The notes under the pieces were generated by a model, which was given only the letters and a program-made list of their open reading frames with translations, was not told the DNA's origin and did no database searches. Positions 3,101 to 56,158 of a stretch of 64,000 bases of DNA are shown here, piece after piece. Every line of letters starts with the position of its first letter. The stretch's first letter is position 1. This DNA comes from Hyperoplus lanceolatus (Eukaryota; Chordata; Actinopteri; Uranoscopiformes; Ammodytidae). Made by a program: the position numbers and the translations under genes. The stretch spans positions 9,614,001 through 9,678,000 of the forward strand of contig CM049416.1 of the NCBI GenBank assembly GCA_026929865.2, in the 5' to 3' direction.

Positions 3101-6100
3101 AGGAACATCTGTATCGTTTTTGGCAAATTTCCCCTTCACAGCAGACAGATGCTTAACTCCACACATACTACAGGGTGAAGTTTATACAGATCACGTGTTA
3201 CTGTAGCTGTTCATTTCAATCACAAAACAAGACAATCCGAGATGTAATTTAAAAAGGTGGAGTCAGTCACTCTGAAGAAAGCTTGTTGACAAAATCACTT
3301 CTAAGAGAATATCTCCTACCGATCTGCTACCTGTTTGTACTGTGTGCACTGAAAAAGAATCTGGTGTTAATACACAGCCTAGGCTCTGTAAACTTTTATG
3401 TTAACAAATGGTATGTTAACAAAGGGGGCCCACTGTAGCTAGCAACATGCCCGTTTACAGAGCCTAGGCTATGTATTAACACTGAATTTTGTTTACAGTG
3501 CACACAAAGTACAGACAGGTAGCTGATCATGAGGAGATATTCACTGATTTTGACGACAAGCATTCCCCAAAATCAATGACTCCACCTTTAAATACTCTGG
3601 AACCAGGCTAGTGTTATACCACTAAAAGCAGTAAAGACATACTTGTTGTAGGGAACAACATGTGACTTTGCCCTTCGTGGCTAATGCCTGGGTCAGGGGC
3701 TAATCTCTGAACTTTGACCTGCACTTGAGGATATTGAGGACATGTGATTCTTTTTTTTTTTTTAATCTGAGAGGCTCAATGACCATCACGGTTAAAACAT
3801 TGTTATCCAAAAATCCAAAGCAAGATCCGTACACACCCTCGTCATCTGGGAAATGTCCATTGGGCTTGGGTCCCTCCTCTGTGGGTTTAAGCACTTTGTG
3901 GTGGGAGGCGGTGGATGATGAAGATGACAGTGATGTGGATGGAGTGGTGATGGAGGAAGAGGAGGAGGAGCAGTGGTTGTGGTGGGGTGGTGGTGGGAGG
4001 GTAGCGATCGCTTTAGGCTCATTTCGCTGCGCACGTCGTTGATGGTCTTCTTGAGCAGCTTGAGGCGTTTGCTGCGGGAGGGGCTGGACTTCATGGCACA
4101 GGTCAGGTCAAACTTCTCCAGCAAGTACTGCAGCTGCTTCTCCTGAGACAGATGCTCCCGGTTGGCCGGCACTAGTAGGCGGTCCACTGAAAGGAGAGAA
4201 TGAAAGCAATGAGCAGGACATAGAAACACGGTTTTGTTCAACAAGTTGTTCTGATTGTAATTTTGTGTTTGACGTAGGTAGGATTGTTGTGTTCTGTCAC
4301 ACACTATGGCACAATGGCATGACTGAATGTTATAAAGTGTGTACTGTTGGTCTGGAGAGGTGGATATGGTAGCTTCCTGCATCTAGAATGCTATCTGAGC
4401 CTGTGCATGTTATCCTCCTCATGTATACATTTATTTTTATTTTATTTATTCATTTGGTTATTGTTGTATCTTGTTATTGTTTTTTTTTTTTTATAAAGGT
4501 ATTAGCATTCACTTTTTGTGTTGTCATTTGGCTTCTACACTCCAACTGGTCTCTGTATATAGTGTTTTGTTGATTGTAAATAAAAAGTTGATCATAATTT
4601 TTTTTCTTCTAATTCTAACAAGAACACGCCACAGAAGCATTTGTCTTTGCTTCGGCTACTCACCGTCCTGCCAAGAGAACGACGGTGACGTTTTGATTTC
4701 GGGCGCTTCGGTCAGGTGCATGCCGCTCTCCGGGTCGAAGCCGATTCTCTCCACATCTCGCCGCGCCTTTCGAAGCAGGGCCCCGCCCAGGTCTCGGAGG
4801 CGCACGCCGGCCCGGTGGAAATACGTGTCCTTTGAGTTGTACTTCATGCAGTTGTCCACGATGAGGTTGAAGTCGCTCTCAAACTGCTCCAGGTTGTTGT
4901 ATTCCTGCGCGTCGATGCGCTGACGCATGGTGGAGAAGTCCATCGGGTTCTTGATGTGGTTGAGGTAGTCAGGCACCTGCAGGAAACAGCAAATAGAGTG
5001 AATTATGTTTATATATTTGACCGTTTAAAAAAAAATGTTAACTCAACATATTTAATTCACTGATGATTAATTTAGATAAAGCATCTAAGTTATTTATGTC
5101 AACAAGGACCGCTGAAAATTTGACTGCAAAGTAGACCATCTTTTATTCTGTGACAGAAATTCAGAATCAAAAAGAAAAAAACATAGACAACATTATAAGA
5201 CATTCATTGATATGAAAAAGTTACACACTATAGCTTTAAAGCTTAGAAGTTTGAATGCCAATACAATCACTTTAAGCACGTGCTCAGCTAACCAAGAAAA
5301 TTAATAATCTATATATAGTGGACTCAACAAGAGTCAAAAGGAATGCCCAGCTTGGGGCTGGGACGCACACCACTGAAAGTCCCATGATCTGCCTGTACTA
5401 TAAAGACAAGCAACTTTGAGCCCTTTAACGGTCGTCTGCTGATGGACCCTGTTCTCAAGTTACTCATTGTTCTTAGCAGGAAGTTTGCTAAACATTGCTC
5501 AACAGAGTCTACAAAGGGAGGGGACGTTGATGTTTAAACGCAGTCACTGTGGTCAGAGTTTGTGCTGGTCGTTTTCATATAGTTCTACTTGTTCTGTCGT
5601 GGCTCTTAGGAATTACGGAAACTCATATTATTGACATGCTATCTAACAACTTCCCCTGAATTCCAATGTACAAATTGTTGGAGTTTTAATGCACTAAATG
5701 TTTGCATGGCTTCTTTAGAGATACACATCATTCATGCCAATTATTTGAACATATTTGAACCTGGCAATCAGGCAAAGAACAGAGAACTCTTAGTACAGTA
5801 TTGCTAGTGGGTTATTGGGCTTTCGTCCTTTAAACAGCACAATGGCAAGATGCAAGGGGCTGTGTTGAAACAAAAACCAGCAAGTCAAGTTTTGAAGCCT
5901 TGTCAAACAGGACACGCATGGCTATGCAGATCCTTGTGTTTGTTTAATGCCGTATTTTTCACCTCTTAAAAAGGTTAATCAATGCTGCAGTTATTTGATT
6001 CTTTAATTCATTGCCTGGAAGCAAAACAACAATTGGCTTTGAAAAAAATAAAAAGGCTAGAGCCAAAATCAGTTTTTTCTTTTTTTCCAGCACTATCTGT

Positions 6101-9100
6101 GTTTCCTTGTGGAGCAATGAGCAACGAGCCCTCTGGTAACAATGCTACAATTTCCAACTTCCGTGCAATAAATAATGATAATAATAAAAACACCCAGTGC
6201 CTCAGAATGAGATAAATTACATCTGCATAATAATATAAGAAAACTAAATCACCCCTTAAGAAATGCAACACTTATCGCACAAACAAGAAATAATATGTTC
6301 ATAATAAAATGGTTTTGCAGCATTATTGTTCTCATTGTGTTGATATTCTGCCAGAGGTAAAGGGTTGGGGATGTTTACGTGGCATCCAAACAATACACAG
6401 TCTTTGAAGACAAATTCAATGAAACAACAGCTTTAATAAGGGGTTGAGCATCCACTGAAGTTCACCTCATTGATATCAACCGGCTGCGTGAAGATCTTGG
6501 CCTGGTCTTTGGCCTGGAGCTGGTCCAAAAGAGTTCGGAGCAAAATACTGAAGGGAGTCAACTGCATCTCCAGGAGGGTCTCCTGCTGTCTTATCTGCAC
6601 AGAGAGGAAACCATGGGATTAATGGCGTCATTTTAAATATTTTGTGGAATTTTCCCCTGAAAGCTGGTCGAAGTGTATTTATCTACCCCGCTGATCCCTC
6701 CGTTCCTACCTCTTCCCTCTTGAGCTTCTCCCTCTTGCGGATGAGCTCCAGCAGCAGCCGGGCTCTCTCCAGGTCGTGTCTGAGTCGATGCCATTCCTTC
6801 AACTGGTCCTTCAGTGCCCGGCTCTCTTCCTCTATCTGCTTCTGGAGAGGACATTTAAATAGAAAAATGCATACATTTTAGCAGTGATTCTCAGATGGGG
6901 TACTGTAGGGTGGGGCATGTGTGATTTTCTTTTAAAAGTTTCATTAAAAATTAAAAAAATATGAGTTACACATAATTACTAAGTTCAATTAAAAAAACGT
7001 TGCACTCCATTAAAAGTGAAATTATAACTACATTCTATTTATTATTGCAAGTGTTGTCAGTTACAATGTTGTTTAATGAATTAGACACTGATGCCACTTC
7101 ACTGTATTTTAATTATTTGTATAGGCTTGTTATTCTTTCACAGAACTGTCTGGGGCCAGTCAAAGCATACGAAAAGTTTGAGCAGCACTGCATTAAAAGA
7201 CAGAAAAGTATTAAAACAATATAAAAAAGTATCAACTTGTATAATAGGTACATGCAGATAGATACAATAAAAACATATTTCACTTCTTCACTACTTTGGT
7301 AAAGGGCAAAACGAAGACAGAAAGTCTCCTGTGGTGGACTGACAGATGAACAAACCGGCTGTGCATTCTTCTGAGAATGCAGGCTTGTCTGAAGGCGTCT
7401 GATGAGGGGAAGCCCATTCCTGGATTGCCTCTTTAGTGCCCAGTAATTGAGGACCAGCTCCACAAAGGCTCTCTTCTTCTGGATGGACACCTGGATCAGA
7501 ATGGTTTGTAACCTAGGAGAAGCCAGGAAGACGGGCGTTAGGCATAGGTCACTAGCTGCTCATGTGACTATTATACAAGTATCCTTTATTTAAGAAAACA
7601 GACTATGCAAACAGAACTCCTCCTCAGAGTAATATTACACTTAACAGCCACAGACGACCTTTAACCAGCATTTGAGGAGACTGACCAAAGGCATGCAAGT
7701 TGATCAATGAAGCTTCTATTTGTGAAGCAAAACATTCCCAGGGTCACATGCTCAAAAATCCTGCAACAGCCAGGGTTTGCACATCAACACGCTGTGTCAG
7801 TGTCCTCGAGAAAGCCCTCTCAATCAATGCAACCACTCACTCGCCAAGCATCAACTGAACGTTGAATCCAATACCACACCTCCCATCAATAACACAACTC
7901 ATACCTGTGAGCAGGAAACGTATGCACAGTAGCAGGGGTCGCGGCTTCACTTTCAATTTCAGGTTCAGGCTTCTTCATTTTACTCTTCTTCCTCTGTTTT
8001 CCTTTTGAGCGTCCTTTACCAACCCCTCTCCCCTTAACAATGTCCGTTTTCTTACATAGTCCGTTTTTGGGTTTGCCGCCGTCGTATATGCTGAGCGGCC
8101 TCCTGACGCACCCATTGGGCGTGTGAGCTCCACAGTAAGCAGTCTTTTTCACAGAGAACGTAGGCTCTCCCGCGTCCGTCACCTCCTTGATGGGCTCCAT
8201 CTTCATGAAGAGGCCGGCCTTTTGGGCGCAGCTGACGTGGAAGGCGGTGTAGCAGTTGGCCTTGTGGCACTGTATACACGCCCCTACGCCTTTCTCCTTG
8301 CAGAGGTAGCAGGTGAGCTTCCAGCGGGCCGCGGGGATTTGACTGACGCCGTCTATGGGCTCGATAAAAGTTGTGTTGGAGAAGCCCACCTCGGGGACCC
8401 ACAGGGCGCACACCACGTGGCCCCAGCGCTCGTCGTCGGTCTTCTTCACCGCCCCGCCCGCGTTGGGACAGAGAATGCAGTCGGCGGGCCGGCCCGGCGA
8501 CTGCAGGCAGTGTCTGCACAGCCACTGGCCCTCGGGAATGTAAGGGACGCCGTAGCACTCCTGGTGCACGGCCACGTTGCACGCGTCGCAGAAGAGGATG
8601 GCGTTGCTGTTGTGGCACTCGCCGTCCACGCAGATGCAGCAGACGGCATCCTCGTCCACGGGGGCGTGCTCCTGGCCGCTCTTGTCCAGACTCTCCAGGT
8701 GAAGCTCCTTCTCGAAGCGGTCCACCAGGAACTCAAAGACGTTGTGTGAGACCTGGCTGACGCCCTCGCCGCGCCGCTTCTCGTTGACCAGCTCCAGCCA
8801 GGCGTAGTCCTCCTCGTCCATGTCGTACTCTGTGTCCTCGTCCAGCTCCTCCTCTGTCTTCTCCTCGAATTTAAAAAAAGCGGCCGGGCGCTTGGGCACC
8901 GCGGGGAGATTGTATTCCACCGTGCGAAATTTGGGCTCCAGGAACTTTGGACCAGCATTCACCACGGTGTTTTGTCCACCTCCTCCTCCTTCCTGCTCCT
9001 GCTTGAGCAGTGAGGCCCAGTGCTGCGTTTCTCTTCTCCTGGTTGTTTTTTAGTCTCACCGAGCGGAGGAGGACCTGCTGCTGCGGCTTCTCGGCGTTCT

Positions 9101-9346
9101 CCTTATTGCTGGTACACTCCATCATCTCCTGCGCCGTGGGGTCGTCGTCAGAGATCACGTCCAGCTTGTCAAGGACGCTGATGCGGTGGAGGCGGCCGTC
9201 GATGTCGAACTCCACCATGCGCTGCGCCTGCTCGTAGGTCAGGATCTGCTTGTTGGGCGAAGGCCTGATGGGAGAGGGTGGACGCTGCGGCACCGCCACC
9301 CGGTGAGGCCGGACCTTCTTCTTCATCTTCCCGCAGCTCCGTGTTG
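161..9346 (-). CDS. brd1: brd1 (BRPF2), bromodomain and PHD finger scaffold protein, 3' end off-window
   Basis: BRD1 is a nuclear scaffold and histone reader that targets HBO1/MOZ-type acetyltransferases. Coding exons, in transcript order: 9326-7905, 7512-7356, 6841-6710, 6594-6466, 4976-4664, 4186-3837, 1939-1352, 652-511, 282-161, all with GT-AG borders. The ATG is at 9326, after an acceptor at 9347. Visible parts are an N-terminal acetyltransferase-binding segment ([20 protein letters not shown]), a PHD-zinc knuckle-PHD module (about 8660-8110; [26 protein letters not shown]), a basic stretch, a coiled helix (6841-6710) and a bromodomain over 6594-4664 with the acetyl-lysine-binding Asn in DNCMKYN. 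The 1939-1352 exon matches the long BRD1 isoform ([16 protein letters not shown]), and 652-161 carries [12 protein letters not shown] and GKPALVRR; these separate BRD1 from BRPF1 and BRPF3. The PWWP domain lies beyond position 1. Exons 9326-7905 and 4186-3837 each seem to shift frame once (see findings). Confidence 0.93.
316..339. repeat. (CA)n microsatellite, 24 bp, in a brd1 intron
   Basis: Perfect ca run about 35 bp upstream of the acceptor of the exon 282-161. Confidence 0.9.
1020..1330. repeat. Teleost interspersed repeat with internal tandem units, in a brd1 intron
   Basis: Two related units of about 116 bp can be seen. Each has an aatatctca...tttgaggga segment (about 1138 and 1254) followed by a gtcaaattgg- or acaaaggtcc-like part and ending in caaggtcactgtgacc (about 1221 and 1305). 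The same ttgagggatttttgtcaaat core recurs in a creld2 intron near 25,995-26,075, so it is a dispersed family. I cannot assign a class. Confidence 0.5.
1352..1939 (-). CDS. brd1: brd1 long-isoform exon (serine/proline-rich linker)
   Basis: The acceptor is ccccttcag|GAGACAAG and the donor CACTG|gtaaga. The exon reads [54 protein letters not shown] and SPVKRLDTG. As I recall the human long BRD1 isoform, the corresponding exon is alternatively included and has the same landmarks in the same order. Entry phase is 1, which fixes the frame needed at the end of the preceding exon (4186-3837). An internally repetitive interspersed repeat begins only some 25 bp downstream of the donor. Confidence 0.88.
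1940..3836. other. brd1 intron, 1.9 kb, with one palindromic MITE
   Basis: This is AT-rich intron sequence between the long-isoform exon and the exon ending at 3837. Apart from the palindromic element at 3247-3593 and short poly(T) tracts (for example about 3752) I see no exon, RNA gene or other repeat. Confidence 0.7.
3247..3593. mobile_element. Palindromic MITE, family A, copy 1
   Basis: A 347-bp imperfect palindrome lies in a brd1 intron. The outer ends are atttaaaaaggtggagtca and its inverted form tgactccacctttaaat. Inner arms carry gctacctgt, tgtgcactg, acacagcctaggctctgta and gggggccc on one side and their inverted forms on the other. No coding capacity. Related copies occur at about 35,655, 58,108 and 60,178. 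The superfamily is unknown; I found no clear target duplication. Confidence 0.7.
4664..4976 (-). CDS. brd1: brd1 bromodomain exon
   Basis: The exon begins gcag|GTGCCTGAC and ends GGACG|gtgagt. It encodes [20 protein letters not shown] through [10 protein letters not shown] and [19 protein letters not shown], the ZA loop to helix C of a BRPF-type bromodomain. The PMDFSTM segment and the Asn of NCMKYN, which contacts acetyl-lysine in this family, are both present, so the pocket looks functional. It joins in phase 1 to the exon starting at 4186 ([13 protein letters not shown]). Confidence 0.93.
4977..6465. other. brd1 intron, 1.5 kb
   Basis: Intron between the two bromodomain exons, with canonical borders. 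It holds a short fragment at about 5,217-5,245 (aaaaagttacacactatagc) that resembles the end of the family B element described at 62,613. Nothing else recognisable. Confidence 0.6.
7905..9326 (-). CDS. brd1: brd1 first coding exon: N-terminal segment and PHD-zinc knuckle-PHD module
   Basis: This is the largest brd1 exon, 1,422 bp, ending CACAG|gtatga. It encodes the start ([14 protein letters not shown]), the HBO1/MOZ-binding motif and the double PHD module that reads histone H3 and binds DNA. The second half reads [20 protein letters not shown] and onward in a frame one base off from the first half. The first-half frame turns to nonsense after about 9020, and the second-half frame meets a stop just upstream of about 9045. 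The donor phase (2) is reached only if one base is dropped, so a single extra base near the ccc run at 9016-9018 is the simplest reading. It could be a sequencing or assembly error or a real variant; an intron here would be under 60 bp. Confidence 0.9.
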
Positions 9347-14420: not shown

Positions 14421-17400
14421 GTTCTGTGCAGAGACGTGGAACTACTTCAGTCTTAAATGGAGAGGGACAAGCAGACACCCTGTGTCCCCGACAGCCACTC
14501 ACTCATTACAACACCTGTTTGAGAGGCACAGAATCGATGACTACACCTGAACAAAGTGATTACATTTGACAACGCAGACCTGACCGTTCTACCAAAACCC
14601 TTGGGCTGCCGCCATGGATGGGGAGGAAGATGTCGCTCAAATGAGTGACGATATGGTCAGTGAACCTAATGGCTCCATGGAAAGTAAAAAAAGAGAGGCA
14701 AAGGGAACGTGCCTGAAAATTGAGGGCCAGGATGGCTACGTATTCAAATCCTACAGCTTTAGCCCTCATGAAAGTGCAGATGCAAAGTCACCTGCTTGCT
14801 CCTCAATAACACTGGATAAAGACTCTCCCCCTTCTTTTCATTTATCTTCTCAGGACGAAAAACAGTTGGAGTCAGACCCAGCCAGCGAGACTGAACCAGC
14901 TTCTCCCACTCCCTCAAACAAATGCCTAAACACTGATACTGAGGGAAATACGGAGAGTGAAAAAAATGAAAATGGTAACGAAGAAAGTCCACACATCAAA
15001 GAGGAGACTGAGGATGCAAATGGAATGGAGGAAGAAACGCAGGATGATGAAAGGCTAGCATTTGGTAGCTCAATTGGCCCCTTTGTTACTAAAGATGGTG
15101 AAGAGTATAATAATCTACTAAGTGGATACACAAGCACCCTTTATGATGTTGCCATGGACGCTGTCACGCAGAGCCTTTTGTCATCTATGAGGAGCAATAC
15201 TAATCCGAGGAAAAAATCCCCAGCGTGGAATCATTTCTGCATATCGCCACGAGACAGTACCAAAGCAATCTGTTTATACTGCATGAAAGAGTTCAGTCGG
15301 GGTAAGAATGAGAAAGACCTCAGTACAAGTTGTTTAATGAGGCATGTGCGAAGGGCTCACCCCACTGTGCTTTTACAAGACGGAGCAGACATGTCCTCAA
15401 TTAATCTCAATAGCCCTCTTGCCTCATCTGTGATACCTTCCTCCCCAAACTCACCAAAAAATGGAGACATAACAAATAGTGTTATCTCTTCTGCCTCAAA
15501 GAACACTTCACCGTCCACCTCCTCAGCTGAAAATTCAGATCTGTCATCCAAAGAAGTGTTACCCAAAGTTGAACCAAAATCAGAACCATATGCCATTGCC
15601 AACACTGACACTGTTTGCAGCACGCTCTCATCCTCACATTCCAACGAAAACCTCCTCGAAGAAATGTCAGACGGAGGGGCCGAGCGCCTCCCTGGGACCC
15701 CCAAGAGCTCGAGCTCCCGTCGGAGATCTGCTGTATGGAAACACTTCTACCTGTCGCCTGCAGACAACTCCAAAGCAGTGTGTATCCATTGTATGAATGA
15801 ATTCAGTAGGGGTAAAAATGGGAAGGATCTGGGGACGAGCTGTCTTATTCGTCACATGTGGAGGGCCCACAAGGAGGTTGTCATTGAGGAAAATGGACAG
15901 GGAAATCACATTCCCCCACCCTATACAAACCCTCCCTCAATGTTGCCCCGCATGGTAGTACAGGATCCAATTGAGTTAAAAAAAGAATCGCCGCATCTTC
16001 CATCCTCACCTGAAACTATACCAGATGAATTACCCCAAAGCATGGAGGAAAGTATGGATATCAAAGAGGAATCTGATGAGGCGATGCATCTCTCAGGGCA
16101 GGAGTCTTCTCTCAATTTTTCCTTCAAAACCCAGGGGGTAGAGTCACCTATTACTTCCTCACCATGCGACCTCTCAGAGGGCCCCAGCCTCAATCAGGAT
16201 CATTCAGTTTTCCAACAAAACAAAAGGATCATGAAACGGGTGAAATCGGAAGTTTGGCACCATTTCATTGTGTCACCGGTTGACCAGTTAAAAGCACTGT
16301 GCCGTTACTGTCCATGCGTTATCAGTCGGGGTAAACGAGGCGACTTTGGTACAAGCTGCCTGATGAGGCATCTAATGAGACGCCACCCAGACGTCCTCAA
16401 AAACCAAAAAAGCACAGATGAGAAGGAAACCTCCCCTCATCCCTACACCAATATTCAAGCAAAGGACGAAGTTTCAACAAAAGAAACTGAGAACCCTGCC
16501 AGTAAGAAAAAGCCACAAACCCTGCCCGTTTTCAGCAAAAAGACGTCAAAACTGTGGAACCATTTTTCCATTTCACCCGATGACCCCACAAAGGTGGTTT
16601 GTTTGCACTGTAGCCGCACAATTAGCAGAGGCAAAAAGACTACAAATCTTGGCACAAGCTGCCTCTTCAGGCACATGCAGAGGTTTCATGTACATGTTCT
16701 TGAAAGTAACAATACTATCTCAGGTGATGTGCCGTCTGCTGACATTCACGTTAAAAAAGAGCTCATGGACACTTCCGTTTATGAAATGGAACAAACCCTT
16801 GAGAAGTTTGATGAACACCACACGGTTGCCAAAAAAATCACCAAACTTATCGCAGAAATGCTCGCACTGGATCTTCAGCCATCAGCTATGGTGGAGAATG
16901 CTGGATTGAACAGACTACTAGAGTACCTCCAGCCTCAGTATTCTCTACCGACCTCTTCTTTCTTCACCAGCACTGCCATACCAGATATGTACGAAAGGGT
17001 GAAAGACGTAGTGCTGACCCACCTGAAAGAGGCTGAAGGTGGTGTTGTCCACTTCACAACTAGTATCTGGGTCAGTAGCCAGACTAGGGAATTCCTGACC
17101 CTTACTGCCCACTGGGCAACGTATGAGTCGAGTGTCCGGCCCCAGGGTCAGGACTTTCATTGCTCCGCTCTCCTAAGTGTCTCGCAAATAGACTGTGATC
17201 AAGATATGCATGACATCCCAAAGCAGCTCGAGTATCTATGGGATTCCTGGATCACCTCATCAGGACTGAAAAAGGGGTTCACTGTAACTGATAACAACAA
17301 CATCCAAAACACCTTGGAGGACCATGGCCATGTCACCATGCAGTGTTTTGGACACACTATAGACCTCATTGTTAGCGAAGCCATAAAGAGCCAGAGAATG

Positions 17401-19215
17401 GTTCAGAACCTTCTGAGTATTGCACGAAAGATCTGTGAACGTGTGCACCGCTCAGCAAAGGCCAAGGAGAAGCTGGGTGAGCTCCAAAGGACCCACCAGC
17501 TTCCAGAGAACCAACTGATTCAGGACGTTCCTTCCAAATGGAGAACCTCCTTTTTTATGCTCGAGCGGCTAGTGGAACAGAAGAAAGCCATCGACGAGAT
17601 GTCGATCGAGTGCAATTTCAGGGAAATCATCAGCTGCGATCAGTGGGAGGTGATGCTGTCGGTCTGCAATGCACTGAAACCTTTTGAAGTCGCCTACAGG
17701 GAGATGAGCAATCGCACTGCCACTCTGGGACAAGTGATACCACTCATTCATATCCTCAATAGGAAGATAGACATGCTGTTTGACGAAACTGTGGGCATAG
17801 ACAACATGCTTAAATCTCTAAAGGAAGCCATGGTGAGCAGAATGTCGGCGACTCTGCACGACTCACGGTACACCTGGGCGACCATGCTGGACCCACGATA
17901 CAAGTCTTCATTGTTCACAGAGGAGGAAGCTGAGCAATGTAAACAAGATCTAATCCAGGAGCTGGACTCGTCCTTGTCTACCTCAGTGGCAGTTAAGCCT
18001 CCGCTGCCCAATGGCTGCAACGAGGCCCCTGTTTCTTCCAGCCCCCCACGTTCAAACAAGGACAACCTCTGGTCTCTAATGGCCGACATCCGACAAAAGA
18101 TAAAACATGAGGAAAAGCCAAAGTCCTCAGAGCTGGCAGTGCTGGAGTACCTTGAGGAAGACATTCTCGATCAAAGCTGTGACCCCCTCGACTATTGGAA
18201 CCTGAAAAAGTTCCTGTGGCCCGATCTTGCCAAAGTAGCCGCCCGTTACGTGGGCTGCCCTCCCAGCATCGTCCCAGCAGAGACACTGTTCAGCACAGCT
18301 AGTGTCAACTGTGCCCTAAATCAGCCCAGGCCTTTACTGGAAAACATGGAGGGTCTGCTGTTCCTCAAGGTCAACCTCCCCTTGATTTACTTTCAGTACT
18401 GATTATGGTTTAGCATTAACTTGAAACCCCTTATCAAGGACCAAGTTGCATAGCTGTGAAATTGTTTTGTTTTTCTGTTGGGCAAAATGTAAAATATCAA
18501 TTTATACACTGATTCTCAATGCAATGGCCAGATTTTGAGGTTTAATTGTATTTGTGTACTACTGTTAAACACTTTGGAGCTGTCTCAGTCAAAAGTGTAT
18601 CAGGGAGGGAGGGCTTTTCTAGCTGTAGGGGTTGGTAATAATGTGTGTGCGTGTGTGTGTGTGTGCTTGTAAATCGATGTTTTCGTTTTCTGTCTACTCT
18701 CTCCTTGTGCCTTATCCAAAACTACTTCAGGTCAAAATGCTGTATATATTTTGTTAAATTGTGCAGATCACGTCAGGATGCTTTTTTGATTATGTATTAT
18801 AAATAGATGCAGAGATGTTTTCTGAATGAAAACATGGCCCAAAAATAAATGCTGTGACTGAAAGATGTTATAAGTTAATGTTATTTAATTTTCATTGTGA
18901 ATTTGTGGCTCATGGTACTGTTGTTTAGAAATAGACTTCTTTTTTTTAACTTGCTGAAATGTTTTTAATAAGTTCATGTATGATATCGCTGTATTTTCAG
19001 AATAAGCAGTTTGTTTGGAATATACAATTTTGTCTCTTAAGCACAATTTAAGTTTATGTCCAGGGGATTAAATTATGGGTTTATTATTGAGTTAAACAAT
19101 GTACTGTACATTTTTTATATTAAATAAACCTAATTTGATAAATGTGTTAGCATTGAGACTGGAACCATGCAAAATGTTGTGGTTTGTAAATAAAGGTTTT
19201 CCTTATGCAATATTG
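14421..19215 (+). CDS. zbed4: zbed4, four-BED-finger hAT-derived DNA-binding protein (coding part 14614-18402)
   Basis: This single exon carries the whole 1,262-codon reading frame. The ATG at 14614 sits in an ideal Kozak context (gccgccATGg). Four BED zinc fingers follow, each with W..HF, CxxC and HxxxxH spacing, at about residues 202-250, 370-422, 543-596 and 643-697 (for example [27 protein letters not shown]). They are separated by acidic, serine-rich linkers. The C-terminal half resembles hAT transposase, ending in the dimerisation region at about 1190-1255 ([28 protein letters not shown]). ZBED4 is a host gene domesticated from a hAT transposon; human ZBED4 is about 1,170 residues. It is a nuclear protein known from cone photoreceptors and Muller glia. 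The 3' UTR has AATAAA at 18844, 19123 and 19189. The flanking genes confirm orthology. Two short upstream reading frames lie in the leader. Confidence 0.96.
14457..14522 (+). promoter_or_regulatory. zbed4 upstream ORF 1 (21 codons)
   Basis: The ATG (taaATGg) in the exon-2 leader opens a 21-codon frame ([13 protein letters not shown]...) ending with TGA, 92 bp before the main start. Its context is moderate to good (G at +4, purine at -3), so it could lower translation of zbed4. Conservation is unknown. Confidence 0.4.
14537..14569 (+). promoter_or_regulatory. zbed4 upstream ORF 2 (10 codons)
   Basis: ATGACTACACC... runs ten codons to TGA, ending 45 bp before the main ATG. Together with the first small frame it makes two upstream frames in the leader. 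This is seen in sequence only; the regulatory role is inferred. Confidence 0.35.
19123..19194 (+). terminator. zbed4 poly(A) signals
   Basis: Two AATAAA hexamers at 19123-19128 and 19189-19194 end the 3' UTR (an earlier one is at 18844). The alg12 poly(A) signal, on the other strand at 19306-19311, is only about 110 bp away. Confidence 0.7.
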
Positions 19216-27315: not shown

Positions 27316-27929
27316 GGTGATTTCTGTTGAATTTCAGATTAACCCATGTCGACATATTGTGTATATTTTCTTGTTCAAATTATTGTCTCTTTGTATTCCC
27401 TAAGGAGCAAATGCAGTGTAGTACAGTTACAGTCATATGAAAAAGTTTGGGAACCCCTCTCAGCCGGCATTATAATTGACTCTGCTTTCACAAAAAAAAA
27501 TATAGAAGTGGTATGTCTTTAATTTACCAGGAACAGCTAAGTACTGGGATGTTTTCCAAACAAAGATTTTTTGAAAAGCAGTATTTGGTTGTATGAAATA
27601 AAATAAAATGTGAAAAACTGGCTGTTCAAAAATATAGGAACCCTTGTGGTTTTGTTGATTTTAATGCCTGTAACAGCATGTAAAACTGAGGACTTTTAAC
27701 ACAAAGTTGGTTGGATTATGTTGTTAAGCCTTGAACCTCATAGAAATGTCTGTTTAATCATGAGAAAATGTATTTTAGGTGCCTAAATGCAAGTTGCACT
27801 TCTCTTTGACTCTGCTGAAGTGAGACAGAATGGGATCATCAAAGCAGTTCCCAAAAGATCTGAAAAACAAAGATTGTTCATTGTCATGGTTTAGGGGAAG
27901 GCTACAAGAAGCTTTCCCAAAGGTTTCAA

Positions 27930-28165
27930 TTGTCAATTTCGACTGTAGGGAACGTTGTCAGGAAATGGCAGGACACAGGCATAGTGGCAGTTAAACCCAG
28001 GCATGGCAGACCAAAAAAAAAACAGGAGCGGCATAGGTGGAGGATTGTGAGAATGGTTGCACACAACCCACAGATCACCTCCAAAGGCCTGCAAGAACAT
28101 CTGGCTGCAGATTGTGTATCTGTACATCGTTCAACAATTCAGCGCAATTTGCACCAAAACATCTG
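27930..28165 (+). pseudogene. Tc1-like transposase N-terminal fragment, left arm
   Basis: It encodes about 79 residues of the paired-like DNA-binding region (MSISTVGNVVRKWQDTG, RPKKKQERHRWRIVRMV), then breaks off at the loop junction after CACCAAAACATCTG. Truncated by the fold-back structure. Confidence 0.85.
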
Positions 28166-28169
28166 CTTT

Positions 28170-28560
28170 TTATAAAGACCAAATAACTTAATTTTTGTCT
28201 CATCAGTCCAAAGCATTTTCTTCCAATATGAATCTGGCTTGTCTAAATGAGCTTTTGCATGCTCCATGCAACTGTAACTGTGGCGTGGGCGCAGAAAGGG
28301 CTTCCTTCTCATCACCCGGCCATACAGATGTTTTGGTGCAAATTGCACTGAATTGTTGAACCATGTACAGATACACAATCTGCAGCCAGATGTTCTTGCA
28401 GGTCTTTGGAGGTGATCTGTGGGTTGTGTGCAACCATTCTCACAATCCGCCGCATATGCCGCTCTTGTACTTTTCTTGGTCTGCCATGCCTGGGTTTAAC
28501 TGCAACTGTGCCTGTGTCCTTCCATTCCCTGACAACGTTCCTTACAGTAGAAATTGACAA
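28170..28560 (-). pseudogene. Tc1-like transposase N-terminal fragment, right arm plus loop
   Basis: Starts MSISTVRNVVREWKDTG at 28560. It continues through the arm (LHQNICMAG) and then, in another frame, RKPFLRPRHSYSCMEHAKAH and SYWKKMLWTDETKIKLFGLY up to the loop junction. The catalytic core stops after the first Asp. The frame break lies near 28,310. Confidence 0.8.
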
Positions 28561-29059
28561 TCGAAACCTTTGGGAAAGATTCCTGTAGCCTTCCGCTAAA
28601 CCATGACAATGAATAATTTTTGTTTTTAAGATCTTTTGGGAGCTGTTTTGATGATCGCATTCTGTCTCACTTCAGCAGAGTCAAAGAGAAGTGGAACTTG
28701 CATTTAGGCACCTAAAATACATTTTCTCATGATTAAACAGACATTTCTATGAGGTTCAAGGCTTAACAACATAATCCAACCAACTTTGTGTTTAAAGTCC
28801 TCAGTTTTACATGCTGTTACATGCATAAAAATCAGCAAGACCACAAGGGTTCCCATATTTTTGCACAGCCAGTTTTTCACATTTTATTTAATTTCATAAA
28901 ACTAATTGCTGCTTTTCAAAAAATCTTTGTTTGCAAAACATCACAGTACTTAGCTGTTCCTGGTAAATTAAAGACATACCACTTGCATCTTTTTTGTGTG
29001 AAAGCAGAGTCAATTATAATGCCGGCTGAGAGGGGTTCCCAAACTTTTTCATATGACTG

Positions 29060-31092
29060 TAATTAGAGCATGTTGTTTTGTGCTGCAGTTGTCATAGATG
29101 ACCACATGGTGGCAGTCTAGCCATATGAAATATGGATGCTCACCACTGTGTACAGAACAGTGCCATACTTGAATTGATCTAGAATGGACAAGTTTGTCTC
29201 ACTGTTTTTGCTGCATCTCTTATCTTCATATCTCATTGCTATTCAGATGCATGAGAATATTTGTTTGCAATTTACTAAAATGAATCAGTATTTTTCTATA
29301 TTTAGTTTCTACTATGTTGTGCTATGTTGTTAATCTTAGATGGGATGTCCACATAGGCTACAATGTTAATCTGCAGTTGTCCAATATGTCCCCACGTAGG
29401 TGTTGAGAGATCTTTTTGGAAAGACCTTCCTTTGGCCCCGTATGGATCAAAGCATATTTTCCTAACCCAAGTCTCACCTTGCAAAAAGGCTTCCCGTGGG
29501 ATGATGACAGCTGTTTTGACTCCACAGGCTTGCCAAGGTGGAGGAGCAGCTAGTTGAGACCTGTCTGAGCTGGTATTGAGGAAGCAGACATCACTTACGT
29601 TACCCCCCATCCCCCCCCCCCCTCACAAACACACACACACACACTTTCCACTCAATGGAAAGGTTGTATCAGGGAGAATGGGTAATGGTACCTGTGATTT
29701 GTTTTTGGAACTGCGTGTTCAGGTACAACGAGAGCAATTTCAAACAGGTCAAATTCTTTGAGTGTGATCACACACTTGGCTGATGTCAACCCAAGGACTG
29801 CACAATTATCTTGATGTAATGGTAACCTAGGCCACCCCCCAAAAGATTTATTTTTTCCATTTTTGTCAGCAAAATAGCCTAGTAATGTATGTCAAGTATA
29901 TACTGTAGGCTATTTAGATTCATGTATACCTTCAGACAAGTTATCCCACTGTACCCCCCTTAAGATAACGTCTACCTGTGGTTCTTTCATATTCAACGTA
30001 GGCCTAGAGGTCGTCTATCTTCTTAGCCAACTCTCGGCAAAAATAGCGAATAACCATATTGACAAAATATGAAACTATTCCTTAATATGTCTTCATTACC
30101 ACAATTCAAGCAAATATGTGACAGTGCAAAGAGACAGACAAACAGCACAAAAGCAGCAAAACAACAAAAATAAAGGGAGAACATGTGTTTATAAGAGGGG
30201 TAAGGGAAGACGGAGACAGCAACTGAGGACGTTAGCATGAATCATATCCCTGACTAATACATGAGTCAATCTTACTACTGCCAAAATTCCCATCTAGGTG
30301 AATATAGCCTTTATGAGAGCGGTGACATAGAGGAGATATGTTTGATATGATGTTTTTGTCGCTTGGAAACGACTTGGACTCTACCTTTCAGCACCTCTGT
30401 GATAGAAACAGCTCAAGCAGAGTGAATGCAGTGATGGCAGTCATGTGTGAGTTGGCCGGTACAGTGAGTAATCGCTATAGATCCACCTGGCTTTTCCCTC
30501 ACTCAAGGGCTTTCTTCATTTGCTACACACACCCAAGCAGCGCCGCAACAGAGATTTGGTGATTCAAGCTAAAGTGAGATAATATAGGCCTACTCCACCC
30601 GCCTTATCAGTCTGAACCACAAAGTGGGGCTGCAACAGGGTTCTCTTTCATGTAGAGATGTAGATTCACTCTGTTTGCCAGGTTTTCCTTTTATAGTAAG
30701 GGATTTCAGACTTGTACCGGTATTTTAAATTAGGTTATGTATCAAAACCTCACAACATTTCCCAACCTGGATTGTATCTGTCATTATTGGGGCCAAAATC
30801 TGGAAAAATCAAAATTTGTCTACGGCTCTACGCCATGTCTGGTATGAAGATATGGGAAGTGTGTTAGCCATGTCTAATCAAGATGGCTACTTTCTTTGTT
30901 CAGTCTCTGTCTGACTCAGAGACTTATTTGGATAGCTTTAGGAGTCCCAAGCTGCTTTCCCCCAACGTACTTTTTTGTTTTGTTTTCTGATCTCTACAGC
31001 CAAGAATAGCATGTCTTTTTAGGTGCAATGGCTAATTAAGGTGGCTATACTTTGTGTGAGTATACTGTACCTGAGGTTACATTAGTTACAAT
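29060..31092. other. Gene desert segment with no recognised gene
   Basis: Two kilobases of unremarkable sequence. The only structure seen is a C run at about 29,609-29,621 followed by a short (CA)n at about 29,630-29,645. Confidence 0.5.
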
Positions 31093-35654: not shown

Positions 35655-35960
35655 ACAATCAAATTTTTATCAAAATCTTTGAATATCTCCTCATGATCCT
35701 CTGCTGTGTGAACTGAAAATAATCTGGCGTGTATACACAGCCTAGACTCTGTTAACAGGCGTGTTGCTTGGCGGGCCCCCTTTGCCCTTTGTCCAAATAC
35801 CAGTTTACAAAGCCTGGGCTGTGTATAAACACCGGGATTTTTTTTCAGCTCACACACAGTATCAGGTAGCGGATCGTGACGGTGATATTCACTGATTTTG
35901 ATTTTAAAAAAGTGTTTTTGAAAACAAGCTCTTCCAGAATCACTGGCTTCCCCTTTAAAT
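35655..35960. mobile_element. Palindromic MITE, family A, copy 2
   Basis: It shares with copy 1 the blocks gaatatctcctcatgatc, tacacagcctagactctgtt, gcgggccccctttg, caaagcctgggctgtgta and the right end ggcttcccctttaaat. Arms are inverted around about 35,780. The outer left end has decayed. Confidence 0.65.
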
Positions 35961-38900
35961 GACACAGAGGCAAACTGACAACACTATAGGATCAAATTCC
36001 TCCAAAAAACAATTTCCTTATTAGCAGTCACATGCCACTGACGGAGAGTTCTAGCAGCTGCAATCGTGGCCGGCCAGCCCGCCAACTCTTTTTGGTTGCC
36101 ATAAATTCTTCATATTCCCTTTGTGAACATGCCAAATCCTAATTAATTTGGAGTATACTACCAGCCGTGCGGATCAAGCCTGTGGTTTTCTAAGTTGCGG
36201 GACCATCTCCACCCTGTCACATCCTAACCAACCAAACAGATGCTCAACAGATCCTAAGATTGCATGCATCGGAAAGGCACATTTGAACTGCAATAACTTG
36301 ACGATTCATCTTCGGATATCTCCAGAGCCCCTCAAAAAGCTCACCTAAGAAGAGAGAAAAACACAAAGAGTAATACTGACAGGTCCCACCAGATGTTCAA
36401 CACCTGGTTGAATAAACCCTGGTGTCAGGACCCTTAAATCCGACATGCGCCTAAAGCTGGGAGGTTCCATACCATGTCTAAGTTTTACAGTCAGAAGTAG
36501 TTATGGGTATAAAGAACAGGTACTAAATAAGCTCACGTGTAATGCTATCTATCGACATCCCTGTAACGTTTATTCCTGCTTACATGGCTGCATTTTCAAA
36601 GTCCTCACCGTGGGTTGAGAAAAAGTGTGGACTCACTTTAGGAAACTGAATGAAACTGCAGCTCAATGCAATATACTGCTGTACATAGTTGCATGTACAG
36701 CAAGTGATGCGCTCACACTTCTGCCAAAAAAGTTATAGTAAAATCTCTTTTCACGTCTTCTCATGTCCTGTCTTTATTGCCTGCAAAGAATGATGGAGAG
36801 TAATATCAATAGGATGGTCCATAAGTATGGGTCAATATCTGTATCAATAAAATCCTAACGATGCCCATCCCTAGTGTTCAGAGCTTGCACTTAAACAAGT
36901 CTATCAGTCATTGTATAGATTATACTACATGAAGCACCTTGCACTGGGGCTGCAGAACTGGATTTTGTGCTACATGAATGGGCCACATTTTGCATTGTCA
37001 ACCCCATGTTCACACCTGCAGTAACATAAAACGCTCGTCGGCTCCCCCACATCAAAGGCATATTTCTCTCTCACTGTTGGATACCAGCTTCAAAATATTT
37101 TCCCAGACCTCTCTGACACCAGTTGTAAAAAAAAAACCCTTGTGGAAGCAGAAGGCCCCATGTTCCCTCCTTCTCGTGGCGGCGGTGTGTGTGTGTGTGT
37201 GTGTGTGCGTGCGTTGCCATGGGGATCAGGCGCTGTTGACACTGCGAGGTGTAAACAGAGGTGGAGGAGAGGGGGAACAAGGTGGTGGTGTGAGGGGGAC
37301 AGAGGAGGTCACACACACACACAGTCTCAGACAGACAACACAGTCTGGCCGGCGGGCGGGATTAGTGTTTTGGTGAGACTGGCTGGAAGGGTCACAGGTT
37401 CAATTCTGTGTGTACCTTTTACCGTAAGCCGCGCAGAAATTCGGCTAAACATACTTACATTTGTTTGATGATTTTTTTCTTATTCGACTGATAAATGGGA
37501 CTACTGCAGCTAGGACTGGACGCTTTCAAGAACGTAGCATTCATTTTCAAATGGCACACAGAGTGAACTGAGTCGCCACTGTCTCCTTTGACCATAAGAG
37601 CTGAGCAAACTCAACATTTCACCATTGTTGTTTTGAACCAAGGAAACACATAAAAAATGGTTGATAAACAGTAGATTCTTTTGAGGTCATATGGAGTCAT
37701 GTCTCTGGTCAATTGTAGCCCCAATTTCCACTCTCCTTTTAGCTCTGTTTTTGGTCTCCACCAACCCCAGAGGTAAATATGTAGCTTTTAAGCAGCTTGA
37801 GTATGTCCATCCACTAGTTACTAACAACAGGTATACAGTGGACTTATCAGACGTCTTCTTTTGTGTTGCAAAAAACAATTGCCGGGAGCAATGCCGATGA
37901 GAGCCGTGAGACTCAATGAAAACAGTTACGAATCAGGCCATAAAACGAGAGATACCATAAAACAAATAATCATTAGATCCATTGTCAATGTAAATATATT
38001 GATTGGTGCAGCTTTAATATCATGGTGACTTGAATCACAAGCAAACAGTTGTTAATTTTTGGTGGATTTTTCAATTTAATATTGGTTTTAAATGTATTTT
38101 TGAACATTTAAGGAAAATATTCTTCAAATGTGGAGAGGATTAAAAGTTAGTGCAACTCAGTGTCAGTGCCTGACCCTTATACTCTAATCTAAATAAACCA
38201 AAGCTGACTCACCCCTGTGTCACTGTACTGGAGAGTGGTTTGGCCATCTGCACATCTGCACATGTGCGGGGAGAATCTGGGCAACAGGTGGGAGTTTTAC
38301 CAGAGACTAAAACAACAGTGCACAAAGAGTCAGACATTCCAAATTTGTAAGGGAACGAATATACTCTTTTTATTATTATTATTTAACCCCAAAAAATACC
38401 ACATGGTTGTCCAAGCTGTTGTTAATGTAACATCATCATGCCGTTTGGCTAGTTAAAAACAGATATTACAAAGAAAGCATCACAAAGTACAAAGTACTTT
38501 AAATAAGATTTTTGCTCTTGAAGTGTTACGGCATTCAAAGAGGCCGGATGTATGCTAGACTGCAACCCTGTCTCCTCGGTGGAGACTGTGACAGACTTGA
38601 ATGCTGTTCTGGGGGCTGAAGTGGGAGACTGTCTCTTCGCTGATGAGTGGTTCGCAAATAGCTAAGTGTGTACATATAGCTTCGGCCTCCGAGTCTAATT
38701 TGCGGTATTTGTTTTTGTTGGTACAAATGTGCTCCATTTAAAAACATGTGTGGTATATTCTTAAATAGCAGTCACGGTATTATTTCAATTCCATTTTTTT
38801 TGTCAGCTGCACACAGCCAAAATACAGCCTACTGCTGCTGGGTCATCAAAACATCCTCACATATTGGGCTAGCTGCTTCCTCAACGTGACTGGGTCTGAT

Positions 38901-39971: not shown

Positions 39972-41324
39972 TTAAAGCTGCAGTTGATCGTTTCAGCCGT
40001 TTTCAGCCGTTGGGATCCCAACGGCTGTTTTCCCAACGCTCTACCTGCTGTAGCTCCTCCCTCTGAACGACAGCTACGCGCGTTCATGTGAATTCAGTTA
40101 CATTGACAGGAGACAAACACCATGTCCGATTCCGAGGTGATTAAACATTAGTAATGATAACTACATACGTACATATTGAGCATACATTTTAATCACAGAC
40201 ATACCATGTATGTTAGCTTAAAATCATTTTAAGTGTGCTGGTAGGCCTAACAAAAGTAGCTGTAACTGCCAGGCAAGATAGCAAACTAATTGTAACAGAG
40301 CAGAGAGGTGTGTGCTCCTGACCTGCTCTGACCGCAGCAGGGAGGGGCTGCTCGGGCAGTGTTGCCAACTTAGCGATTGTGTCGCTATATTTAGCTACTT
40401 TTCAGCCCCCCTGGCGACTTTTTTTCAAAACAGCGACAAGCAACACATCTAGCTTTTTTTCTGGTGTAATTGGTGACTTTTTCGCAGAAGCAAATATCAC
40501 TTGTAACGCTTCTCAACGAGCAGCGGGAGCCTCCCGGCCCGTCCCCCGTCACAGAGCACTGACAGACGGCCCGGTCCTCGCGCAGCAGCCCCTGCCAGCT
40601 GCGGTCAGAGCAGGAAAGCACCTCTCAGCTCGGGGCTGCTGCGCGAGGAGCACCTCTCGCTCGGGGCTGCTGCGAGGAGCGGGCTGCGTGTCAGTGCCCC
40701 CGCTGCTCGTTGAGAAGAGATGATACTTGCTTTGGCGAAAAAAGTCACCAATAACACCAGAAAAAAAGCTAGATTTGTCGCTTGTCGCTGTTTTGAAAAA
40801 AAAGTCGCGAGGTCGCGGTCGGAGAGGTCTTGATGTGATAGGGCAAGAAGACATGGCCGGTGTACTTTTTTTCAAGCTCTCTCCGTCTCCCTTTCAGCAG
40901 TTAACTTTTCAATATTCGTCTTTCCTCGTTTTTTTGCTGTCTTAGCGGTGTTAGTTGTTAGTATCCTGGGAATGGTGAATTGAGGGTTCGTTTGTGAAGA
41001 CATTGCTACTCGCTGTCCGCCGTAGTAGCCTTGTACCAAACAGTAGGCTAGTGTCAGACTGCTAGGGTCGTGAACGCTCACGCATCTGACGCATCAACGT
41101 CGTTGCCAAGGTCCCACAGCCAATAAGAACGGAGAATCTGACCTCGCTCTGATTGGTCAAAATTAACATGAGCGGTGGCAATTTTGGGGGGCAGCACACA
41201 GAGGCAGGGGGGAGCAATGTGATAAAAAAATATTTTCAGACCACTTCACCTACATATAGCTGAATGGCTATTATGACAGTTTTGCCAAATATTACAGTAA
41301 AAAAACTCTCAACTGCAGCATTAA
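39972..41324. mobile_element. TTAA-flanked non-autonomous element, about 1.35 kb, with nested palindrome
   Basis: The left end is TTAA+AGCTGCAGTTG and the right end CAACTGCAGCA+TTAA, so 11-bp ends are inverted with one mismatch inside a TTAA at each side. TTAA target sites are a mark of piggyBac-type elements, but the termini lack the usual CCC start, so the class is not settled. The interior includes ccaataagaacggagaatct and the palindromic repeat at 40,414-40,808. No transposase frame. Confidence 0.6.
40414..40808. repeat. Long inverted repeat with GC-rich loop (nested)
   Basis: Arms 40,414-40,527 and 40,697-40,808 are inverted copies (gcgactttttttcaaaacagc; gcttctcaacgagcagcggg), about 112 bp each. 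The 170-bp GC-rich loop holds two tandem copies of a unit around ctcggggctgctgcg. The left arm has extra outer sequence (ttgccaacttagcgattgtg) not seen on the right. No coding potential supported. Confidence 0.75.
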
Positions 41325-54195: not shown

Positions 54196-54524
54196 TGGTA
54201 GCTCTGTGCCTCTGGCCAAAACAATGGGCCTACCTTCAAAATATACAGTAACGAGAACAATGTCGTAAATCTCCCCAGATGAGTTTCTCAAACAAATCTG
54301 GTTTTATCTCAGTGAGACTTCCAGGGCCGTAAAGGACATCACTTTGTTACGAAATAAGCTTCACCAAAACATTAAATAATCACTGACCAGAAGGGCCCAA
54401 TAGCTATACAGTAAAGGTAAATATAATTTCCTGAAAAATATGGCATGTGTCTGAAGGCCTAAGATTCCATTTTCCTTCAGTGCCATAAAACAGAATATTT
54501 GAAATGTAGGCTTCCTTGATATTA

Positions 54525-56158
54525 CACTCAACAAAAATATAAACGCAACACTTTTGTTTTTGCTCCTATTTTTCATGAGATGGACTTAAAGATCTAAAAT
54601 TCATTCCAGATACACAATATTACCATTTCTCTCAAACATTGTTCACAAATCTGTCTAAATGTGTGATAGTGAGCACTTCTGCTTTGCTGAGATAATCCAT
54701 CCCACCTCACAGGTGTGCCACATCAAGATGCTGATCTGACATCATGATTAGTGCACAGGTGGCACACAATGTCCACAATAAAAGGCCACTCTGAAATGTG
54801 CATTTTTTTGCTTTATTGGGGGTCTGGGGACTTAGAACCAGTCTGCCACCGGTCTGGTGTGACCACCATTTGCCTCATGCAGTGCAACATATCTTCTTCG
54901 CATAGAGTTTATCAGATTGTCAATTGTGGCCTGTGGAATGTTGGTCCACTTCTCTTCAATGGCTGTGCGAAGTTGCTGGATATTAGTGGGAAGTGGTGCA
55001 CGCTGTCGTATACGCCGGTCAAGCACATCCCAAACATGCTCAATGGGTGACATGTCCGGTGAGTATGCTGGCCATGCAAGAACTGGGACATTTTCAGCTT
55101 CCAAGAATTGTGTACAGATCCTTGCAACATGGGGCTGTGCATTATCTTGCTGAAACGTGAGGTGATGTTCATGGATGTATGGCACAACAATGGGCCTCAG
55201 GATCTCATCACGGTATCTCTGTGCATTCAAAATGCCATCAATAAAATGCACCTGTGTTCTTCGTCCATAACAGATGCCTGCCCATACCATAACCCCACCA
55301 CCACCATGGGCCACTCGATCCACAACATTGACATCAGCAAAGCGCTCACCCACACAACGCCACACACGCTGTCTGCCATCTGCCCAGAACAATGTAAACC
55401 GAGATTCATCCGTGAAGAGAACACCTCTCCAACGTGCCAGACGCCATCGAATGTGAGCATTTGCCCACTCAAGTCTGTTACGGCGACGAGCTGGAGTCAG
55501 GTCAAGACCCCGATGAGGACGACGAGCATACAGTTGAGCTTCCCTGAGACGGTTTCTGACAGTTTGTGCAGAAATTGTTTGGTTATGCAAACCAATTGTT
55601 TCAGCAGCTGTCTCAGTGGCTGGTCTCAGACAATCTTGGAAGTGAACCTGCTGGATGTGGAGGTCCTGGGCTGGTGTGGTTACACGTGGTCTGCGGTTGT
55701 GAGGCCGGTTGGATGTACTGCCATATTCTCTGAAACGCCTTTGGAGACGGCTTATGGTGGAGAAATGAACATTCAATGCACGAGCAACAGATCTGGTTGA
55801 CATTCCTGCTGTCAGCATGCCAATTGCACGCTCCCTCAATGCTTGTGGCATCTGTGGCATTTTGCTGTGAGACAAAACTGCACATTTCAGGGTGGCCTTT
55901 TATTGTGGACAGTCTAAGGCACACCTGTGCACTAATCATGATGTCAGATCAGCATCTTGATGTGGCACACCTGTGAGGTGGGATGGATTATCTCAGCAAA
56001 GCAGAAGTGCTCACTATCACACATTTAGACAGATTTGTGAACAATGTTTGAGAGAAATGGTAATATTGTGTATCTGGAATGAATTTTAGATCTTTAAGTC
56101 CATCTCATGAAAAATGGGAGCAAAAACAAAAGTGTTGCGTTTATATTTTTGTTGAGTG
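54525..56158 (-). mobile_element. Intact Tc1-like transposon
   Basis: The element is 1,634 bp with TA target duplications at 54523-54524 and 56159-56160. Terminal inverted repeats of about 278 bp begin cactcaacaaaaatataaac on both ends (54525-54802 and 55879-56158), with few differences. The inner part is filled by one complete transposase gene on the minus strand. Length, TA target and DD34E enzyme all fit an autonomous Tc1/mariner element. Elements of this type are widespread in teleosts and known to have moved horizontally to lampreys. Confidence 0.95.
54832..55875 (-). CDS. Tc1-like transposase, full length, 347 residues
   Basis: This cut-and-paste transposase recognises the terminal repeats and inserts at TA. 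The N-terminal helix-turn-helix (RERAIGMLTAGMSTRSVARA, STISRLQRRFREYG) is followed by an AT-hook/GRPR-like basic linker (RPHNRRPRVTT). The catalytic triad is complete: Asp in LFTDESRF, Asp in FQQDNAQPH and, exactly 34 residues later, Glu in SPIEHVWD (DD34E). A glycine-rich box (AHGGGGVMVWAG) sits between the Asp residues. There is no stop or shift in the frame, and the start codon abuts the inner end of the terminal repeat. Activity cannot be judged from sequence alone. Confidence 0.95.
   Translation of the reverse strand: MSHSKMPQMPQALRERAIGMLTAGMSTRSVARALNVHFSTISRLQRRFREYGSTSNRPHNRRPRVTTPAQDLHIQQVHFQDCLRPATETAAETIGLHNQTISAQTVRNRLREAQLYARRPHRGLDLTPARRRNRLEWANAHIRWRLARWRGVLFTDESRFTLFWADGRQRVWRCVGERFADVNVVDRVAHGGGGVMVWAGICYGRRTQVHFIDGILNAQRYRDEILRPIVVPYIHEHHLTFQQDNAQPHVARICTQFLEAENVPVLAWPAYSPDMSPIEHVWDVLDRRIRQRAPLPTNIQQLRTAIEEKWTNIPQATIDNLINSMRRRYVALHEANGGHTRPVADWF

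Follow-up and report, generated by a model that had tools for sequence, protein, structure and literature searches.

A dispersed, non-autonomous fold-back Tc1 family in Hyperoplus lanceolatus, likely formed by tail-to-tail joining of two frameshifted 5' halves

Introduction

Tc4 and Tc6 of C. elegans are about 1.6 kb long and consist of long arms and a short loop, with Tc1-like ends in the case of Tc6. The family described here has the same fold-back structure in another host and another lineage, and its arms have been traced to two ordinary subfamilies. With the Sleeping-Beauty-type Tc1 elements of fish it shares the TA target, the CAGT ends, two direct repeats per end, the SB HTH and Tc3_2 domains and the first catalytic Asp, whereas a 3' end and a complete transposase are absent and both of its ends are of the 5' type. 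Tc1/mariner MITEs are also non-autonomous and thought to be moved in trans. They are short deletion derivatives (under about 600 bp), which as a rule carry a 5' end and a 3' end, in contrast to the present element, which is of full size (1,630 bp), has two 5' ends and no 3' end, and thus falls outside the MITEs. Long inverted ends are likewise found in Galileo of Drosophila, a P-superfamily element reported to be structurally highly variable in its ends, while the present arms are nearly constant in length in the 40 copies examined and share one junction. Tetris, a Mutator-like Foldback element, is non-autonomous with long inverted arms as well, but is reported to have 8–10-bp target duplications and internal tandem repeats in the arms, unlike the TA target and the lack of a tandem array here (PMC4079207). 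Among the titles and abstract openings screened on fish or Tc1 fold-back families, none describes the present element.

The element lies in a 64-kb stretch of H. lanceolatus DNA, hereafter the window. It is one copy of a dispersed, non-autonomous family that probably originated in one tail-to-tail end joining of two frameshifted Tc1 5' halves and was probably spread in trans.

Architecture of the element

The 1,630-bp element at 27430–29059 carries the 5' end of a Sleeping-Beauty-type Tc1 twice, in inverted orientation, together with a 159-bp loop. Its features are:

27428–27429, no strand: left TA target-site copy, seen in the sequence (TA on both sides in 40/40 copies)
27430–28165, plus strand: left arm, 5' terminus and initial portion of a frameshifted Tc1, A1-like by arm comparison (clade with 7 A1 ordinary copies, 99/98, 31-copy tree)
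27438–27456, plus strand: outer direct repeat of the left end, resembling a transposase site, from repeat comparison
27625–27643, plus strand: inner direct repeat of the left end, resembling a transposase site, the mirror of 28847–28865 (at both ends in 40/40 copies, up to 3 mismatches in 16 nt)
28165–28166, no strand: the sole novel junction, from native ..AAAAAG to antisense CAGATG.., with an overlap of no more than 1 nt, C (found at 262 places, against 0 in the reversed control)
28166–28324, minus strand: loop, extending the right arm as native sequence and ending shortly after the first catalytic Asp, from alignment to ordinary copies and 5cr4
28325–29059, minus strand: right arm, 5' terminus and initial portion of a frameshifted Tc1, A2-like (clade with L055 and L056, 100/99 with 31 copies and 96 with all 40; A2 state at 19/20 diagnostic sites)
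28721–28784, minus strand: right-arm stretch with left-arm states, a likely inter-arm conversion tract (5 adjacent diagnostic columns, 281–346)
28847–28865, minus strand: inner direct repeat of the right end, resembling a transposase site, from repeat comparison
29033–29051, minus strand: outer direct repeat of the right end, resembling a transposase site, from repeat comparison
29060–29061, no strand: right TA target-site copy, seen in the sequence (TA on both sides in 40/40 copies)

The two mutually inverted arms, 736 bp (27430–28165) and 735 bp (28325–29059) long, are 93.8% identical, differing by 45 substitutions and one 1-nt indel, and their pairing is far above chance (E 0.0). They make up nearly the entire element (735 + 736 of 1,630 bp), as in a fold-back element. 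Each arm opens with the Tc1 end CAGTCATATGAAAAAGTTTGGGAACCCC, the termini of the window copy read CAGT...ACTG, and in both arms a copy of the outer repeat recurs 186–187 bp further inward, a layout known from Sleeping Beauty as IR/DR. The preliminary description, made from the sequence of the window, had recognized inverted arms of about 735 bp, each starting at a bona fide Tc1 end, and this agrees with the arm identity, the termini and the TA flanks.

In a domain search, HTH_Tnp_Tc3_2 was matched by the coding remnant in both arms, and HTH_SB was matched above the cut-off by the left-arm reading and below the cut-off by the right-arm reading. The loop is an unbroken extension of the right arm, as in ordinary copies, and its segment WTDETKIKLFG aligns with WSDETKIELFG of the Sleeping Beauty catalytic core 5cr4. 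Judged by this alignment, the loop does reach the first catalytic Asp, as initially described. The coding sequence stops after this Asp and carries two frameshifts, leaving no complete DDE transposase, and from its sequence the element is classed as non-autonomous. The 64-kb window contains neither a second fold-back copy nor an Rfam match, and no tandem arrays were detected in the element (0 at score 30).

Dispersal in the genome

The window's own 806.7-Mb assembly, in which it corresponds to contig C22, 9614001–9678000, was searched at the DNA level with the element. The best 40 of 666 candidates were scored, a sample of best-scoring places that is biased to whole copies, and comprised the window copy and 39 others at 95–98% identity, all aligned over the full length. 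These copies are 1,621–1,637 bp long, with nearly constant arm length and a single common junction. TA is present on both flanks in 40/40 of these best-scoring copies and exact CAGT/ACTG ends in 37/40, the other three having one changed base; the inner repeat is found at both ends of all 40 when up to 3 mismatches are allowed. The target-site match between the flanks is usually TA alone, so that duplications of 8–10 bp are not seen. The 600-bp flanks of the 40 copies are mostly unrelated, with similarities confined to 14 pieces of 66–315 bp, 12 of them between copies and two between both flanks of one copy. The latter concern L003 and L033, in each of which one flank repeats part of the other in inverted orientation (146 bp at 96% and 315 bp at 89%, respectively), suggestive of an insertion into another inverted-repeat element.

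A 26-mer spanning the junction, searched with up to 3 mismatches, was found at 262 places (124 forward, 138 reverse), with a reversed control giving 0, and the exact junction 20-mer is present in 33 of the 40 copies. Five further copies were taken from the junction list: three are full-length with TA on both sides, and two match only partially and lack the left end. The 262 junctions, TA on both sides in 40/40 copies and the mostly unrelated flanks indicate that the family moved and multiplied after its formation, in line with the early suggestion that the element may have moved once formed.

On average, the 40 copies diverge from the family majority by 1.3%. The minimum pairwise distance among them is 0.7%, hence the sample holds no very recent pair. 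Under assumed rates, a mean-copy age of 1.3 to 5.2 My can be computed, which depends on those rates only and is not taken as a result.

Ordinary copies and the junction

Ordinary copies were collected by a search with P0001 as the query, in which 114 of 21,681 candidates were scored and 20 loci fetched; 16 of these 20 match the native half. Eleven loci with full matches were used for the frameshift and junction comparison and 13 loci for the trees, from which L052, L053 and L062 were excluded (incomplete 5' part or rearranged). L066–L069 and L042–L049 gave no match to the native half at E 1e-8. Ordinary copies with both ends are flanked by TA on either side in 9/9 cases, and seven of these nine are 1,612–1,629 bp long, the remaining two measuring 1,841 and 1,898 bp; the fold-back element is thus of ordinary Tc1 size, as had been noted.

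In the frameshifted group of ordinary copies (group A), the 5' end reads GGGAACCCC, and the 3' end, found in seven copies, reads GGGACCCCC in six and GGGACTCCC in one. Among the fold-back ends, 39/40 on the left and 40/40 on the right have this 5'-type sequence, GGGAACCCC, which supports the original statement that both ends represent the same 5' terminus. In the older group B (L050 and L051), the 3' end is also GGGAACCCC, so that this mark of end type is valid within group A only. A +1 and a −1 length change of the fold-back arms are common to 9/9 group A ordinary copies, two of which, L054 and L055, have an extra indel next to the −1; neither length change occurs in L050 and L051.

Where the left arm ends, the sequence ..AAAAAG is followed by C in 8/11 ordinary copies and by T in 3/11, including both A2 copies. 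At this point the fold-back element has CAGATG; in its own native setting, CCATA comes before this sequence. Given these native neighbours, the two sides of the junction have no more than a single base (C) in common. Of the two junctions initially proposed, 28165/28166 is new and stands; 28324/28325 lies in native sequence and is merely the end of arm pairing. A 24-mer of the ordinary continuation, searched with up to 3 mismatches, was found at 194 places (reversed control 0). The fold-back junction is therefore commoner than the matching parental site (262 versus 194), where both counts are of surviving sites and not of insertion rates, the patterns differ in length (26 versus 24 nt), some copies are favoured by the spelling chosen, and both counts are influenced by age.

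A separate, independent inverted rearrangement of the same Tc1 family is present in L062 (638–1943 of G000:C14:790402-793365), in the order sense 1–529 with a gap, then antisense 1125 to 252, and no second end was found at this locus. Judged from this sequence, inverted joins recur in this Tc1 family, L062 being without an end needed for moving.

Relationship of the arms to two ordinary subfamilies

Left arms diverge from one another by 2.0% and right arms by 2.7%, while left and right arms differ by 6.3%, with nearly equal left–right distances within a copy (0.0621) and between copies (0.0629). A tree of the arms by themselves separates all left from all right arms with a support of 0.992. 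The ordinary copies of group A fall into A1, seven copies nearer the left arms, and A2, comprising L055 and L056, which are nearer the right arms; A2 is thus represented by two ordinary copies, and the ordinary copies have a mosaic look. When all sequences were placed in one tree, 35 left arms formed one group and five of the 40, including that of L041, were positioned at the base of the group of right arms and A2. The copy groups L005, L006, L009, L010 and L020, and L021 and L025, recur in the left and right parts of the tree, the pattern that copying of whole elements would give.

The clade tests followed inspection of the all-in tree. With 10 copies picked by eye, right arms grouped with A2 (100/99) and left arms with A1 (96/97), and a single clade for both arms was rejected (lnL 91.9 lower, p-AU 4.7e-5). 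With all 40 copies, right arms and A2 retained a support of 96, but a single clade for both arms was not rejected (lnL 50.5 lower, p-AU 0.079), and constraining the left arms with A1 gave a slightly better tree than the free search. In a third test, the nine copies with a swap run of 3 or more (see below) were dropped; the remaining 31 copies gave 100/99 for right arms with A2 and 99/98 for left arms with A1, and a single clade for both arms was rejected (lnL difference 92.5, p-AU 3.1e-9). The 31-copy test is preferred because exchange between arms breaks the tree model, and its outcome depends on dropping these nine copies.

Diagnostic arm sites were defined as those at which at least 5/7 A1 copies agree and both A2 copies agree (n = 20). 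The right arm has the A2 state at 19/20 and the left arm the A1 state at 18/20 of them. The loop contains two diagnostic sites, each polymorphic (6/7) in A1, and shows the A1-like state at both; over 158 positions it differs at 1–2 from five A1 copies, at 4–5 from the other two A1 copies and at 5–6 from A2. On these comparisons, the fold-back element is most likely a hybrid of two subfamilies, either from birth or through later replacement of an arm. The arms thus resemble two ordinary subfamilies instead of two halves of one transposon, as the preliminary description had it, although this is weaker when all 40 copies are included.

Two other approaches were set aside. Reading the 6% difference between the arms as a clock since formation is wrong, the difference being fixed in the family and mirrored in the ordinary subfamilies. 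The distribution of derived states between the arms was also put to a runs test (P 0.004), which was post hoc, preceded the 40-copy set and is not relied on.

Sequence exchange between the arms

Swapped states were scanned at 39 sites where the left and right majorities differ and compared with 2,000 permutations that ignore shared descent. Runs of at least 3 adjacent swapped states occur in 10/80 arms (null mean 2.9, maximum 9), and the longest run spans 13 sites, compared with 7 in the permutations. For instance, in L032 and L033 some 350 bp of the right arm show left-arm states, both copies sharing the same tract, which probably goes back to one event. The left arm of L041 carries right-arm states and is identical to its own right arm at 50/50 bases, as it is to other right arms, and the right arm of the window copy has left-arm states at five adjacent sites (28721–28784). 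We infer that such runs reflect conversion between arms, although recombination between copies could give some of them.

Occurrence of the junction in an outside contig

A protein search with the coding remnant found P0022, a protein of 183 aa on a 1,546-bp contig, which aligns to the window element without gaps over 181 residues (158/181 identical), running from the right arm through the loop and across the junction into the antisense of the left arm. The relatives found by this search include many fish proteins, in line with a fish host. In the 806.7-Mb genome, 150/150 scored places (of 5,625 candidates) match P0022, and the best match is 92%, hence P0022 is not one of the scored genome copies. 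The antisense arm of P0022 has non-A1 states at two codons (arm 591/592 and 607), and a third (612) is ambiguous. No other junction-crossing protein was found among the eight new ones of the 17 proteins matched by P0022. Six proteins matched a query made of the left-arm frame as far as the junction; of these only P0009 is close, and none was shown to end at the junction.

The TIR pattern was found 0 times in viral_contigs and 0 times in genome_contigs. A shorter 18-mer matched one viral contig, with about 21 bp shared, most likely by chance. No match for P0009 was found in viral_contigs, and blastn against phage sequences gave no match.

Mobility and RNA

The frameshifts shared by the arms and the nine sampled ordinary copies suggest that the parents were probably already dead before the fusion, with transposase supplied in trans. 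Because the fold-back element codes for no transposase and group A shares its frameshifts, the enzyme is expected to come from elsewhere, and the family was likely spread by a Sleeping-Beauty-type transposase acting in trans. No intact close transposase was seen among the 114 of 21,681 candidates scored; the stop-free, near-full-length frames among these have about 42–56% identity to P0001 and hence belong to other subfamilies. The genome is rich in Tc1-like places (21,681 candidates), several with stop-free open frames among those 114. About 91% of bases are predicted to be paired on either strand, a property that follows from the arms and is silent on expression.

Origin of the family

We favour a birth, likely a single one, by tail-to-tail joining of 5' halves that came from two different Tc1 copies, both frameshifted beforehand. 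The joining could have occurred by a deletion between two neighbouring tail-to-tail copies, or during repair of an excision gap, with the second broken end copying the 5' half of another Tc1. The product would then likely have been multiplied by a Sleeping-Beauty-type transposase in trans, and the arms would later have exchanged sequence by conversion. End joining is favoured because at most one nucleotide is shared at the junction; inverted template switching during gap repair, proposed at the outset, is fitted by this overlap no better than end joining, and perhaps less well. Taken as a whole, the account of two dead Tc1 copies of different subfamilies fused into a passenger with two 5' ends, which travelled better than its parents and outnumbers them, kept full size and had its arms reshuffled by conversion, is offered tentatively, at somewhat less than even confidence.

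A single A1-type copy may instead have folded back, by template switch or wrong-end gap repair, with the right arm overwritten by ectopic gene conversion from A2 before the family multiplied. We regard this as possible but rather unlikely. The A1-like states of the loop at 2/2 diagnostic sites and its overall closeness to A1 agree with it, as do the inter-arm swap runs that exist in the family, P0022, which shows the junction yet lacks A1 states at two codons, and the 40-copy test, which leaves a single clade for both arms unrejected. However, it requires a second event over at least arm positions 64–613, and the supporting loop sites are just two, both polymorphic in A1. Birth from two copies is given the larger share because one event suffices and end joining yields two 5' ends with at most one shared base; confidence in it is slightly lowered by the single-clade option that the 40-copy test keeps.

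Apart from how it arose, the hairpin could act as a source of double-stranded RNA for silencing Tc1 relatives, beyond parasitism; the preliminary description had raised double-stranded RNA or piRNA production as a possibility. The predicted pairing of about 91% of bases on either strand and the abundance of the family (262 junction places) are compatible with such a role, which we nevertheless think improbable.

The joining of two copies is also to be weighed against fold-back priming, in which a broken 3' end would have annealed to a short inverted repeat of its own strand and been copied outward. In yeast, this process is reported to produce inverted duplications at short inverted repeats (PMC10622511), but here the junction shares at most 1 nt and the arms match two subfamilies and not one template, making this origin very improbable. 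An assembly artefact or single local rearrangement, for which the preliminary description had proposed a genome search for further copies of the junction, is ruled out for practical purposes by arms that are 6% apart, by 262 junctions and full-length dispersed copies with TA on both sides in 40/40 and mostly unrelated flanks, and by the identical junction in an outside contig (P0022).

With birth by tail-to-tail joining of two copies as the preferred reading, the origin of the family is legible in one junction with at most one shared base and in arms resembling two distinguishable parents, and it can be read because relatives of the parents persist in the same genome. The occurrence of a two-5'-end element at 262 places, compared with 194 for the ordinary site, provides a natural test of the end rules in Sleeping-Beauty-type transposition, and a numerous hairpin is available for testing input into small-RNA silencing.

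Other features of the window

A second, different Tc1 is located at 54522–56161, flanked by TA; its inverted ends span about 288 bp and are 96.5% identical. It contains one open frame of 347 aa (54832–55875, minus strand) with DDE_3 and HTH_Tnp_Tc3_2 matches, and its sequence has the look of a young, possibly intact element. A self-inverted, MITE-like repeat family (about 70% identity) occurs at 3253–3589, 35670–35964 and 58103–58355, and a self-pairing inverted stretch (74% over about 400 bp) at 40410–40812. Further open frames presumably resemble a BRPF/BRD1-type PHD-finger protein (7886–9326, minus strand) and a ZBED4-type BED-finger protein (14614–18402, plus strand).
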